From a virus: a DNA stretch of 23,086 nucleotides. Each line of letters starts with the position of its first letter. Within the stretch, counting starts at the first letter, position 1. Where the stretch lies: positions 1 to 23,086 of the IMG/VR virus record IMGVR_UViG_3300048102_000437; one strand, written 5' to 3'. Both the position numbers and the translations under genes were made by a program. The notes beneath the pieces are model-generated. The model did no database searches and was not told the origin of the DNA. It worked only from the letters and a program-made list of their open reading frames with translations. Below, in pieces: positions 4,532 through 22,576 of this stretch.

Positions 4532-5533
4532 ATGAGTGAAGACAATAAAGATTTAAACGAGTTCTTAAATAAAAAAGAACAAGAAGGAGGAGCATTTAAC
4601 GATGATTCTCAAGAATCTACAAAAGAAAACGTAGAAACGGTTGATCCTATTGAAGATACTATTAACAAGGAAGGATTAGGCAAAGTCAACATGACTAAAT
4701 TCAACCCTGAAAAAGCAGACAATGCTGATTTTCATTTAGGCTATCACGACATGGACATGAATACTCTTTTTTCAAAAGGACGTTTTTATCCAGCAGATAC
4801 TAAAATAACTATTAGATCAGCAAGAGTTGCTGAAATTAGACATTTTTCAACAATGGATGAAGGTAATATTTTTGACATTGAAGATAAATTAAATGGAATA
4901 GTAAAAGCATGTGCTAGAATTGAATCACCCGGTAAAAAACTATCTTACAAAGATCTTTTAGAAGAAGATAGAATCGCGGTTATTTTAGCAATTAGAGATC
5001 TTACTTTTCCAGAAGCTGAAAATAAATTAATGTTAAAGGCTGAAAATAGTTATGGTGTAACTGAAGATGTTGAATTAGCTACAAGGAATCTTACTGGAAC
5101 TGAAGTACCTGAAGAAATTGAAAAATATTATGATGCCGTTGCGAGGTGTTTTAGAATTCAAACTAAGAGTTCTGGTGAAATATTAATGAGACCTCCATCT
5201 GTTGGTGTTATGGAAACTGTTACTAAATATATTAAGGAACAGCAAGAACAAAAGAAAAGATGGGATCAATCATTTATCCAAATCTTACCATATATTCAAT
5301 TAGACTGGAGAGGATTTAATACAAAAGAAGTATTTAACCAAGAAGTTGCATTTCAAGGATGGAATGAAAAGAAATACATGGTTATGTACAGGCTAGCTGA
5401 AAAAATGAAAATTGGTGCACAACCTGAAATGGAAGTAGACGTCGACGGAGAGATGGTAACGCTCCCTCTCGACTTCCCAGGTGGAATCAAAAGTCTTTTC
5501 ATTATTTCGGATCTCGCTGGAGAACTTCTTTAA
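4532..5533 (+). CDS. gp26-like baseplate hub / tail assembly chaperone protein
   Basis: This 333-aa protein likely acts in assembling the tail around the tape measure protein. Residues 1-60 are acidic and disordered-looking. From about residue 78 the segment LFSKGRFYPADTKITIRSA matches the start of the T4 gp26 (T4_baseplate) family, which opens with 'lpS.Gk.Yp....i..r'. A helical middle follows (DKLNGIVKACARI, then LLEEDRIAVILAIRDLTF), and the end carries a beta hairpin with VDVDGEMVTLPL, like the conserved gp26 C-terminus. It sits between tube and tape measure, the slot of tail assembly chaperones in other phages. Its 3' end is overlapped by a +1 frame that carries a second, gp51-like segment, and the last sense codon plus stop reads CTT TAA. 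A frameshifted 416-aa form is therefore possible. The family call is moderate; the general role is more certain. Confidence 0.6.
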   Translation: MSEDNKDLNEFLNKKEQEGGAFNDDSQESTKENVETVDPIEDTINKEGLGKVNMTKFNPEKADNADFHLGYHDMDMNTLFSKGRFYPADTKITIRSARVAEIRHFSTMDEGNIFDIEDKLNGIVKACARIESPGKKLSYKDLLEEDRIAVILAIRDLTFPEAENKLMLKAENSYGVTEDVELATRNLTGTEVPEEIEKYYDAVARCFRIQTKSSGEILMRPPSVGVMETVTKYIKEQQEQKKRWDQSFIQILPYIQLDWRGFNTKEVFNQEVAFQGWNEKKYMVMYRLAEKMKIGAQPEMEVDVDGEMVTLPLDFPGGIKSLFIISDLAGELL

Positions 5534-5783
5534 GACTAAATTTTATCTGGGCATTCACTTACGACTCCAGCCCTCTGAAATAGATAATCTCGATTATTAT
5601 GAGTATTATTATTATGTTCAAAATTTAAAGGAACATTTAGATAAGAAAAATAAATCTGAGAAAGAACAACAAGAAGGGGCAGAAGAAAAGATGAGTAAAT
5701 ATAAGAAGGGAATGAACCCTAGCTCAATGGCCAACAATTTTAAAGGCCCAAGCATGCCTAATATATCTATGCCTAAAATATAG
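5481..5783 (+). CDS. Overlapping +1-frame segment, likely frameshift extension of the gp26-like protein (gp51-like)
   Basis: This frame is open from base 5460 to the stop at 5781-5783 and overlaps the previous gene by at least 53 bases. The only starts are poor: GTG at 5481, or ATG at 5691, which would remove most of the domain. The conserved-looking core is downstream of the previous stop: FKTKFYLGIHLRL, then PSEIDNLDYYEYYYYVQNLK, then a Lys/Glu-rich linker and a Met/Pro/Asn tail ending GPSMPNISMPKI. A helix with EIDNLxYYEY is the pattern of the second part of tail assembly chaperones and gp51-like proteins. A ribosome slipping +1 at CTT (5528-5530) would fuse 83 residues to the upstream protein. 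Independent initiation cannot be excluded. The coordinates given are for the GTG start. Confidence 0.6.
   Translation: MESKVFSLFRISLENFFKTKFYLGIHLRLQPSEIDNLDYYEYYYYVQNLKEHLDKKNKSEKEQQEGAEEKMSKYKKGMNPSSMANNFKGPSMPNISMPKI
5522..5536 (+). other. Candidate programmed +1 frameshift site (CTT TAA)
   Basis: The upstream frame ends CTT CTT TAA GAC. A P-site tRNA on CTT (5528-5530) can slip to TTT (5529-5531) and continue with AAG. This is the arrangement of the bacterial prfB site (CTT followed by a slowly decoded stop). A purine-rich GGAG lies at 5519-5522, five bases upstream of the slippery codon. The candidate product joins 4532..5530 to 5532..5783. Confidence 0.5.
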
Positions 5784-9497: not shown

Positions 9498-10349
9498 ATG
9501 AATGTTTTAGAAAAGTATATCACACATTGTAAAAAACACAATATCCAATTTCAAATGGATAACCATGTAAGGCCTTATGATGATACAACGCTTTTCTGTC
9601 CTGCTGGCATGCAGCAATTTAAAGATCGTTTTAAAAATCCAGATGGTACAACAGTAGCAAATGTTCAATCTTGCTTAAGACTACAAGATATTGATGAGAT
9701 AGGAGATGGAAGCCATCTTTTATATTTTAATATGTTAGGTCTTTTTAGTTTTGGAGAAATGACAGTTAACCAAGCTGTTGAATTTTGGATGGAATTTGTA
9801 CAAGAAGAACTTAAAATCCAAGTAGATTGTGCAACTATTCATTCTGATAAGTTTGACAATTGGAAATGGATGTATGATATTTATAAAACTCCATTAAAAT
9901 TAGACGACGAATGTATTTGGACCGATGGAGAAATGGGAGGCTATTGTACAGAGTTTTACCATAAAGGAATAGAAATAGGTAACATTGTAAACACCTCAGG
10001 AGACTTTATTGATGTCGGGTTTGGACTTGAGCGACTTGATGCTATAATCAATGGTACAAAAATAAAGAGTGCAAATGAGACACTTGAAGACACTATATTA
10101 AAAATTATAGATTCAGGTTATAAGCCAGGTCCACAAAAACAAGGTTATGTATTGCGTAAACTTCTTAGAATTTTATATAGCAATAATGGTTATATGGATC
10201 ATGATTTTTTTAGAAAAGAAGTTGAAAGACAAGAAAAAACGAAACTTAGGTATCTTAGACTTAAGGAAAAATATCAAGATAGAACTAAAAATTGGTGGTT
10301 TGATACACATGGTATCGATATAGATGAAATGAACGAATTAGGCTTATGA
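9498..10349 (+). CDS. Miniature alanyl-tRNA synthetase-like protein (class II catalytic core only)
   Basis: This 283-aa protein carries the diagnostic motifs of the AlaRS aminoacylation core, which makes alanyl-adenylate and charges tRNA-Ala. Residues 28-44 (DDTTLFCPAGMQQFKDR) match 'DPTLLFTNAGM.QFK'. Residues 58-61 (SCLR) and 64-87 match motif 2, with DIDEIG and FNMLGLFSFGE in place of 'DLDNVG...FFEMLGNFSFGDY'. Residues 147-160 (GGYCTEFYHKGIEI) match the 'GPCSEI' region, and residues 171-180 (IDVGFGLERL) are motif 3 with Arg179. GYVLRKLLRIL (217-227) matches 'GYVLRRIIRR'. The editing and C-Ala domains are absent; bacterial AlaRS is about 870 aa, and this is shorter than known active E. coli fragments. 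It overlaps the next ATG by 4 bases (ATGA). The same window encodes tRNA-Ala(UGC). Tail alanylation of another acceptor is an alternative role. Confidence 0.8.
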   Translation: MNVLEKYITHCKKHNIQFQMDNHVRPYDDTTLFCPAGMQQFKDRFKNPDGTTVANVQSCLRLQDIDEIGDGSHLLYFNMLGLFSFGEMTVNQAVEFWMEFVQEELKIQVDCATIHSDKFDNWKWMYDIYKTPLKLDDECIWTDGEMGGYCTEFYHKGIEIGNIVNTSGDFIDVGFGLERLDAIINGTKIKSANETLEDTILKIIDSGYKPGPQKQGYVLRKLLRILYSNNGYMDHDFFRKEVERQEKTKLRYLRLKEKYQDRTKNWWFDTHGIDIDEMNELGL

Positions 10350-16911: not shown

Positions 16912-17652
16912 ATGGCACACATACAATGGGGCGGATATAAATGGCGTCCAAGAGAAAAATGGGGAACATATCACCCTGACAAAACATATTGCTATTATGA
17001 TAGAAGCGCAATAGAAATAAATGAAAAGGACGAAATGATCTTAAAGACTCAAATGAATCCAAAAACATTTAAAGGCAAGTCACTTCATTATAATTCAGAA
17101 TTAACAGAGCTTGAAATTCCAATAGGAGTAGGTTTAGTATCAAGTGTTGATGGCTTTGGCTATGGATATTTTGAAATAGAAGCTAAGTTACCAACAGGTA
17201 AGAATCTATGGCCTGCATTTTGGATGAGTCCATTTGAAAGCTGGCCACCTGAAATTGATGTTTTTGAAGCTTATTCAAAAAACAAAGAACACTTTTTTCA
17301 TTTTGATCTTTTTAATCCATTTGGCTTTTGGAGAGTTGAAACTAATTTTCACTGTGGAAAGCAACCCGATAATTATAATTTAGGAGCAAAGACACATTGG
17401 CTAGGTTGGAAAAATCCAGCAAAACACTTTAATAAATTTGGATGTTTATGGACTGAAGATGTGATTAAAATATTTTATAATGATAGACTAGTTAGAGAGC
17501 TTAAAGATCCAGAGTTATTAGATGAATATCGTGGTAAATCAATGAATGTAAAAATAAATGCACATGTCGATGCAGGTGTAGATGTAAACAATCACCCTAC
17601 TTCAGAATATGTTGTAAGAAATTTTAAATACGAACCGCTATCTACTAAGTGA
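16912..17652 (+). CDS. Glycoside hydrolase family 16 (laminarinase/carrageenase-like)
   Basis: This 246-aa jelly-roll protein should hydrolyse beta-glucans or galactans. The catalytic signature EIDVFE sits at residues 114-119 (nucleophile Glu114, Asp116, acid/base Glu119). Before it comes FGYGYFEIEAKLPTGKNLWP (82-101), the classic GH16 'YG.fE.r.k.p.g.G.WPAfWm' strand. After it come HFHFD-like strands and a WTEDVIKIFYNDRLVREL segment (154-172 region), matching 'w....i.fYvDg..v'. There is no signal peptide, so it acts in the cytoplasm or leaves at lysis, or is carried on the virion. It has an ATG with an A-rich leader 6 bases after the thioesterase stop, and its stop overlaps the GTG of the PurU gene. 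Substrate is unknown. Confidence 0.9.
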   Translation: MAHIQWGGYKWRPREKWGTYHPDKTYCYYDRSAIEINEKDEMILKTQMNPKTFKGKSLHYNSELTELEIPIGVGLVSSVDGFGYGYFEIEAKLPTGKNLWPAFWMSPFESWPPEIDVFEAYSKNKEHFFHFDLFNPFGFWRVETNFHCGKQPDNYNLGAKTHWLGWKNPAKHFNKFGCLWTEDVIKIFYNDRLVRELKDPELLDEYRGKSMNVKINAHVDAGVDVNNHPTSEYVVRNFKYEPLSTK

Positions 17653-18482
17653 AAGAATACATTTTAAAAATAAGGTGTAAAGATGGCTTTGGAATAGTTT
17701 CTAGAATTTCAGAAATTGTTACGAAACTTGGTTTTTTCTTTAGAGAATTAAAAGAGTATGGAGACAAAGATACTAATACTTTTTTTATGCTGGCAAAAAT
17801 AGCATCTCTAAATGAGTTTAATCATGTTGAATTTCAAAAAGTAGCAGATGACATTGGTGCAACATGGTCTTTAAAGGAAGTAGAAAGTAAACCAAAGACA
17901 GCAATATTTGTTTCTAAATATGGACATTGTTTACATGATATTTTATATAAGTGGAGTGCAGGTGAACTAAACATAGATATTCAATGTGTAATTTCAAATC
18001 ACGAAGATATGAGAAAACTTGTTGAAGGCATAGGCATAGAGTATCGATACATTCCAATTACGAAAAAAACTAAAGAAGAACAAGAGGAAATTACATTTGA
18101 AATTTTAGAAGAAAGAAACATAGAATTAGTTGTACTCGCAAGATATATGCAAATTCTATCGCCTACATTTTGTAAACTATATTCAGGTAAGATTATAAAT
18201 ATCCACCATTCATTTTTACCAGGATTTAAAGGAGCAAGACCATACCATCAAGCACATGATAAAGGAGTTAAGATTCTTGGAGCTACGGCACATTATGTTA
18301 CTGCAGATCTTGATGAAGGTCCAATCATTGAACAAATGGTAGAGAGAATAGATCATTCAAAAAGCCCAAAGGATATGGAGTTAATAGGCAGAGACCTTGA
18401 AAAAGCCACACTATCAAAGGCAATAAAATACCATAGTGAACAGAGAATATTTTTAAACGGAAATAAAACTGTAATTTTTTAA
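17649..18482 (+). CDS. Formyltetrahydrofolate deformylase (PurU family)
   Basis: This 277-aa enzyme hydrolyses 10-formyl-THF to formate and THF, linking one-carbon and purine pools. Residues 1-80 form an ACT-like regulatory domain (ILKIRCKDGFGIVSRISEIV at 5-24). The catalytic domain follows: KTAIFVSKYGHCLHDILYKW (83-102), CVISNHEDM, VVLARYMQILSP (161-172), INIHHSFLPGFKGARPYHQA (183-202, catalytic Asn184 and His186), GVKILGATAHYV (206-217) and LDEGPIIEQ (221-229, Asp222). The length (about 280) and domain order equal bacterial PurU. The start is GTG 17649, overlapping the GH16 stop by 4 bases (GTGA). Phage-borne PurU is unusual. It is the last gene of the long unit. Confidence 0.92.
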   Translation: MKEYILKIRCKDGFGIVSRISEIVTKLGFFFRELKEYGDKDTNTFFMLAKIASLNEFNHVEFQKVADDIGATWSLKEVESKPKTAIFVSKYGHCLHDILYKWSAGELNIDIQCVISNHEDMRKLVEGIGIEYRYIPITKKTKEEQEEITFEILEERNIELVVLARYMQILSPTFCKLYSGKIINIHHSFLPGFKGARPYHQAHDKGVKILGATAHYVTADLDEGPIIEQMVERIDHSKSPKDMELIGRDLEKATLSKAIKYHSEQRIFLNGNKTVIF

Positions 18483-21272: not shown

Positions 21273-21881
21273 ATGCCAAAAACAAAAATCACTTACAGAG
21301 AATTAGCAGAAAACTTCGTAGCAACAAGATCAGAAAAAGACTACAACGCAATTTACAGTAGAGTAAAGCCAGGTCTTAAAACTTATATCTACAAAATAGT
21401 AAAAGACAATCAAATTGCAAATGACTTAACTTCAAACGTGCTAATTAAACTTTGGACTAAGATCGATCAATACAAACCAGAATGGCAAATCACAACATGG
21501 TTATACAAGATAGCATTTAATGAAGCCTTAGGTTATATTAAAGAAAGAAATAAAAAATCATCACTTGACCAATTAAGAGAATTCGGTGTACAAGTAGGTG
21601 ATGATGGTATTATTAATGGTTCTGCAAATGGACTCTTAATGGAATACGAACAAAAAACTGAAAATGACTACATTGAAGAAGACGAAGAGCTTATGCAAAA
21701 ATACGAAAGTGCACTTAAAGCAATTGTAGATCTTAAGCCAATGTACAAAGAAATCATGGAAGATAGACTTTTAAAAGGTATGAAATACGAAGACATTTCA
21801 GCAAAACATAAAGTCAATTTACAAACAGTTAAAAACAGAATCCGTAGAGGTAAAACATTAATCGCAGAAAAAATATCATAA
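21273..21881 (+). CDS. ECF-like sigma-70 family RNA polymerase sigma factor
   Basis: This 202-aa protein has the two-domain sigma architecture. Region 2 spans about residues 25-95: YIYKIVKDNQIANDLTSNVL (38-57, core polymerase-binding helix) and KPEWQITTWLYKIAFNEALG (68-87, the '-10' helix with the W..I..N pattern). A longer acidic linker (100-142) follows. Region 4 spans about 143-200, with a helix-turn-helix MKYEDISAKHKVNLQTVKNR (170-189) for -35 contact. It replaces or joins the host sigma to direct phage transcription. It is itself behind promoter copy 7, which suggests autoregulation. An ECF class with no anti-sigma neighbour is visible. Confidence 0.9.
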   Translation: MPKTKITYRELAENFVATRSEKDYNAIYSRVKPGLKTYIYKIVKDNQIANDLTSNVLIKLWTKIDQYKPEWQITTWLYKIAFNEALGYIKERNKKSSLDQLREFGVQVGDDGIINGSANGLLMEYEQKTENDYIEEDEELMQKYESALKAIVDLKPMYKEIMEDRLLKGMKYEDISAKHKVNLQTVKNRIRRGKTLIAEKIS

Positions 21882-22489: not shown

Positions 22490-22563
22490 GGGGGTATAGC
22501 TCAGTTGGCTAGAGCGCCTGCCTTGCACGCAGGAGGCCGTGGGTTCGAATCCCTCTACCTCCA
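22490..22563 (+). tRNA. tRNA-Ala (anticodon TGC)
   Basis: A full cloverleaf can be drawn. The acceptor GGGGGTA (22490-22496) pairs with TACCTCC (22556-22562), giving G3:U70, the main alanine identity element. The D stem is GCTC/GAGC, the anticodon stem is CCTGC/GCAGG (22517-22521 and 22529-22533) and the anticodon is TGC (22524-22526). The T arm is GTGGG/CCCTC around TTCGAAT, with one T-T mismatch in the stem. The discriminator is A (22563). Only AC is present, so CCA must be added enzymatically. It would read GCA, GCG and GCU codons, which are common in the tape measure gene. Confidence 0.95.
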
Positions 22564-22576
22564 CTTATTATATTTA

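Follow-up and report, generated by a model that had tools for sequence, protein, structure and literature searches.

A very probable ribosomal frameshift joining gp26-like and gp51-like coding sequences upstream of the probable tape measure gene of a T4-related phage

How does a T4-related phage express a gp51-like coding sequence that overlaps the end of its gp26-like gene in another frame? The question is raised by the DNA analysed here, a stretch of 23,086 nucleotides (positions 1 to 23,086 of IMG/VR record IMGVR_UViG_3300048102_000437) that we call the window, which is a structural region of a T4-related myovirus with terminase, sheath, tube, the gp26-like gene, the +1 frame and the probable tape measure gene. 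The two overlapping frames lie directly upstream of the probable tape measure gene and downstream of the tube gene (Table 1). As the initial annotation had proposed, sequence comparison supports a programmed shift, of net +1, that would join the gp26-like and gp51-like parts before the probable tape measure gene; very probably, ribosomes change frame near the end of the gp26-like gene, about 33 bases 5' of its stop codon, and so add the gp51-like domain.

The locus and its protein families

Table 1. Features of the overlapping frames and the gene that follows them
Feature	Position	Strand	Evidence or remark
gp26-like gene (333 aa, frame 0), putative 'G' tail assembly chaperone	4532..5533	+	phrog_36717, E 1e-26
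Zone with fixed codons (nnC CCT, then TTC CCA GGT, ATC, AAA)	5462..5494	+	possible stimulator or alternative slip zone
GTG in +1 frame, possible but unconserved separate start	5481..5483	+	start-codon comparison with relatives
CTT TTC, best candidate slip site	5495..5500	+	nTTTTC in window clade, second clade and most distant lineages
gp51-like extension, +1 frame (SLFRISLENFFKTKFY...), including dual-coded 5499-5533	5499..5783	+	phrog_634 (baseplate hub assembly catalyst)
Dual-coded stretch, ending CTT CTT TAA	5501..5533	+	synonymous constraint; +1-frame conservation
Probable tape measure gene, 1094 aa	5810..9094	+	position and length only

The gp26-like frame runs from an ATG at 4532 to a TAA at 5531-5533 (333 aa) and ends, as originally described, in CTT CTT TAA GAC; the +1 frame is indeed open from 5460 to 5783, with PSEIDNLDYYEY beyond the stop. 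A contig scan recovered 62 viral contigs carrying the gp26-like gene (47-100% protein identity), and all 61 that reach its end keep both CTT TAA G and the open +1 frame, which argues that the overlap is not due to chance. Additional scans with the gp26 proteins of PAU, MaF61, MA9V-1 and L076 yielded 1, 1, 0 and 1 loci, respectively.

By their profile matches, both parts are homologous to T4 gp26/gp51. The window gp26-like protein matched phrog_36717, the family of PAU gp93 (profile search, E 1e-26), PAU gp93 matched PF12322 (T4_baseplate; E 3e-8), and the gp26-like part is linked through phrog_36717, L064 and PAU to the T4 gp26/gp51 family (PF12322, phrog_150, phrog_634). The extension matched phrog_634 (profile search, E 1e-5); neither it nor the gp26-like protein had a direct Pfam match, and the 1094-aa probable tape measure ORF matched no family in the profile search. 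The predicted structure of the gp26-like protein, of moderate quality (pLDDT 78; weak, 68, for the extension), matches T4-like baseplate hub proteins in BFVD; a PDB fold search gave no significant match, the HK97 tail chaperone 2ob9 appearing only at E 7.3.

Elsewhere in the window, a tRNA-Ala gene (anticodon TGC) occupies 22490-22564, and the same phage carries at 9498-10349 a stand-alone alanyl-tRNA synthetase fragment (PF01411, N-terminal part only); since the listed ORF start at 22505 falls inside the tRNA gene, the acetyltransferase-like gene must start further downstream. At 16912-18482 a glycosyl hydrolase family 16 gene adjoins a formyl transferase gene, both preceded by a thioesterase gene, and 21273-21881 encodes a sigma-70 family factor with regions 2 and 4.

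Coding and constraint before the stop codon

The initial annotation had located the shift at the stop itself, at CTT TAA; however, judged by its conservation, the +1 frame is protein-coding already upstream of it: (i) The phrog_634 (gp51) profile scored 13.1 bits against the part that follows the stop (from 5535) and 26.6 bits against the +1 frame from 5496, that is, once the 13 codons 5' of TAA are added. By type of fusion, the scores were 14.9 bits for CTT TAA, 27.2 for -2 at CTT TTC and 29.4 for +1 at CTT T, the difference between the last two being too small for a choice. (ii) The same overlap occurs with other stop contexts in distant phages (LR756500, PTm1, LR745206, MA9V-1, MaF61, PAU, pT24 and others), with +1-frame sequences that align there (FSLFRISLENFF, FSLFQIQLTNFF, FSLIRVPMTNYY, FSLFMMPLKHIL, FSLFQVDLQYYF, FSLIQLPSLRNF), and the +1 motif FSLFxI is kept across lineages whose stop contexts differ. 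(iii) When frame-0 codons were swapped for synonyms in eight lineages to give a null, the z value of +1-frame conservation against it rose from 0.0 in codons -12 to -6, through 4.9 in codons -6 to 0, to 8.3 in codons 0 to 10, codon 0 being the first of nTT TTC.

The end of the gp26-like frame is also under synonymous constraint. Among nine disjoint sequence pairs, synonymous differences amounted to 6/98 over the final 12 codons and 668/1648 over the gene body (p 6e-14), and across the window clade the synonymous observed/expected ratio, taken in 9-codon windows, falls to about 0.1 near the gene end, the lowest value elsewhere being 0.61. In the subclade of the window the onset is ragged and lies a few codons 5' of CTT TTC: TTC CCA GGT, ATC and AAA are fixed, GGA/GGC is free, and CTT TTC is again invariant, as are most codons after it; at the fixed codons of 5462-5494 the ratio is 0.00 (24 unique subclade sequences). 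In clade B the constraint begins at TTT CCC AAC, where CCC is present in 53/53 sequences, yet makes up 1/638 of the Pro codons elsewhere in the gene. In cyanophage-type loci the onset lies at a -1 heptamer near the stop, which shows that the beginning of constraint can indicate where ribosomes slip. On these data the slip site would lie within 5474-5500, and relatives may use different codons there. On these comparisons the overlap is real and strongly selected.

The candidate slip site and its alternatives

In many other T4-type phages the corresponding junction carries a classical -1 heptamer. In S-RSM4-type gp26 a T TTT TTC stands in phase shortly before the stop, the -1 frame continuing into gp51, and T TTT TTY is present in 81/81 cyanophage-type loci (S-RSM4 and 80 related contigs). 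In seven of the nine other T4-superfamily phages checked (Mosig, phiN3, LPCS28, Yut2, CC2, Vibrio D480 and Rhizobium IC12) the heptamer is likewise in phase, with C or T as its last letter, whereas in LIMEstone1 and Vibrio K393 overlapping ATG starts take its place. The motif G-[LI]-x-x-F-F ends on the heptamer, and G-I-K-S-L-F ends on the CTT TTC of the window, which lies within about two codons of the heptamer position. The gp51-profile positions of the window, T4 gp51 and the -1-extension junctions all fall at 57-60: matches start at position 58 in the -1 extensions and at 60 in the T4 gp51 C-terminus and the window extension (six of the nine further T4-type records entered this comparison, four as -1 extensions and two with overlapping starts). 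Cyanophage gp51, annotated as a separate short g51 gene, has been described as being without its first ~200 residues (Sullivan 2010, PMC3037559), and in Cronobacter phage LPCS28 and Aeromonas phage CC2 no gp51 is annotated after gp26, yet the -1 frame matches phrog_634. In the Lak phages L067 and L070 a longer linker sets the gp51-like domain, again in the +1 frame, well apart from the gp26 stop that precedes it; their gp26 ends in GAT TTT TAA, possibly another shift site.

The gp26-gp51 fusion is well supported by the sequence data, and we consider it likely that it arises, from one start codon, by a slip at CTT TTC with a net shift of +1. Re-pairing at +1 is impossible at the TTC CCA of the window, so that CTT TTC ranks first among the candidates and AAA A second; the nine slip-site analyses behind this choice are not independent, as several used the same alignments and the candidate was picked after they had been viewed. 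The sequence nTTTTC is present in 27/28 unique window-clade sequences, in 51/51 of a second clade and in most distant lineages, while nTTTTY, found in nearly all lineages, is absent from L061, pT24 and Lak.

At CTT TTC we found neither a slow A-site codon nor a well-supported shared RNA structure, and RNAalifold gave no convincing shared fold downstream: in clade A the z values are large, but the folds behind them are weak (-4 to -6.5 kcal/mol) and show little covariation. Upstream of its TTT CCC, clade B may form a hairpin whose loop holds GAGGAGGU. As a separate observation, L160-L239 carry an invariant, Shine-Dalgarno-like GAG GAG GTC about 12 codons 5' of ATTTTC, in the loop of a possible hairpin, and GAGGAGGT, akin to that stretch, occurs in L025, L053, L061, L075 and L240.

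We infer the joining of the two frames by slippage, and with it the slip codon, direction, efficiency and function of the shift. Starting from a single start codon, most ribosomes would make the 333-aa gp26-like protein, and a fraction would slip at CTT TTC, either by tRNA-Phe re-pairing from UUC to UUU (-2) or by tRNA-Leu re-pairing from CUU to UUU (+1). Slipped ribosomes would then cross the overlap and produce a gp26-gp51 fusion of 417 aa (-2) or 416 aa (+1), so that the sizes first calculated, 333 and 416 aa, stand for a +1 slip. By analogy with lambda G/GT, binding of the tape measure protein would fall to the short form, and the extension would bring in the next tail component.

The same fusion would result if ribosomes slipped 1-7 codons further 5', by +1 at AAA A (5489-5492) in the window subclade and by +1 at TTT C in relatives, where a slow CCC or CGN codon would occupy the A site while UUU re-pairs to UUC. 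We regard this as rather unlikely, although AAA is followed by A or G in the whole window subclade and TTT C is present in clade B, PAU, pT24, L061, Lak, L064, L071 and L240, the lineages without nTTTTY included; the CCC of clade B, rare elsewhere in the gene, and the constraint onset there point the same way. The inability of TTC CCA to re-pair argues against it for the window, where a CCC-based slip is ruled out by the CCA itself, and AAA A/G is not conserved in the remainder of the clade. Moreover, variable codons 5' of CTT TTC alter the +1 residue freely (GGA/GGC/GGG, GCG/GCC), whereas those downstream do not.

It is improbable that no frameshift takes place and that the gp51-like protein has its own start, at GTG 5481 or at another non-standard codon within the gp26-like gene. 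Most window-clade sequences do have a GTG in the +1 frame, and an overlapping ATG expresses the homologue in the Ackermannviridae phage LIMEstone1 and Vibrio phage K393. However, the initial annotation was right to see no convincing start here: GTG 5481, the sole ATG, GTG or TTG before the conserved part, has no Shine-Dalgarno sequence at normal spacing, and it was rejected as an independent start for being unconserved, with no start codon preceding the conserved motif in the L044 group, L064, L071, L240, L161 and L177. The cyanophage-type loci, with their -1 heptamer and no upstream ATG, GTG or TTG in 60/60 unique loci, argue that the family uses frameshift fusion.

Least probable is a prfB-like +1 shift at CTT TAA, with the junction peptide SLFIISDLAGELLK, which we rejected on +1-frame conservation and phrog_634 scores: CTT TAA G does not vary among the 61 contigs of the window clade that reach the gene end, and it recurs in L064, but such a shift costs about 12-15 bits of the gp51 match and leaves the +1-frame protein conservation before the stop unexplained, and elsewhere the relatives have other stop contexts (TTA TGA T, GAA TAA, TCT TAA G, GAG TAA T, GAC TAG T) behind a conserved upstream +1 sequence. 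The CTT before TAA is explained by dual coding, for Leu in frame 0 and for the Phe of an N-F/Y-F-K motif in the +1 frame. The purine-rich GGAG noted directly 5' of CTT CTT is present in the window and lost in L052, L057 and L061, so no Shine-Dalgarno-like element is kept close upstream of the P-site codon; nor does the junction lie at a stop codon in the A site, as the +1 frame is coding 13 codons before it.

T4 gp26/gp51 and known frameshift systems

Full-length PF12322 matches were obtained for both T4 gp26 (1-206, E 9e-64) and T4 gp51 (1-201, E 4e-52), and the latter has about 48 additional C-terminal residues that match the extension family. Thus, T4 would make both chaperone forms from duplicated genes, its gp26 and gp51 looking like G and GT tail chaperones with a gene each. 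Both have been listed as hub assembly chaperones of undetermined oligomeric state (PMC3004832), and a review listing tail chaperone shifts of -1, -2 and +1 described such frameshifting as widespread among long-tailed phages, with T4 as the exception (Atkins 2016, PMC5009743). Our comparisons suggest that T4 relatives have the tail chaperone frameshift and that T4 swapped it for two genes; the varied expression modes of the gene pair may explain why T4 appeared to be the lone exception. In the literature searched, with subscription journals mostly outside the search, we found no earlier report of a gp26/gp51 frameshift, and no paper uniting the T4 exception, the short cyanophage gp51 and the listing of gp26/gp51 as chaperones.

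On balance, we favour the view that the T4 superfamily has a G/GT system of its own in the gp26/gp51 pair. Its mode of expression would depend on the lineage: cyanophages and many others would use a -1 shift, Bacteroidota and huge phages, the window phage included, a -2 or +1 shift, one Ackermannviridae phage at least (LIMEstone1) and one Vibrio phage overlapping starts, and T4 duplicated genes. If this is true, T4 is no exception and cyanophage gp51 is a frameshift extension of gp26; T4 gp26 and gp51 would gain a testable joint role with the tape measure protein gp29, many annotations with a too-short or missing gp51 would be corrected, and a single gene pair would allow -1, net +1, overlapping starts and duplication to be compared.

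The window locus shares features with several known systems and differs from each of them: (i) In T4, gp26 and gp51 are two complete genes on opposite strands, whereas the frames of the window overlap. (ii) As in prfB, a P-site slip from CUU to UUU is possible at CTT TTC; however, this favoured site has no A-site stop codon and apparently no close Shine-Dalgarno element. (iii) The cyanophage g26/g51 pair likewise has a short gp51 extension, out of frame with the gp26 that precedes it, and a homologous junction, but the site is the classical -1 heptamer T TTT TTC. (iv) The slip sequence and proteins of phage Mu differ from those of the window locus. The Mu tail frameshift nonetheless belongs to a contractile tail, and its shift of -2 (PMC5009743) gives the same frame as +1, -2 being putative here. 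(v) Lambda G/GT (Xu, Hendrix and Duda 2004; PMC5009743) involves proteins other than the T4 gp26/gp51 family and a shift of -1 rather than net +1, and yet it has the same arrangement, with overlapping frames between the tube and probable tape measure genes and a second frame that has no conserved start and is, in the window putatively, joined near the end of the first.
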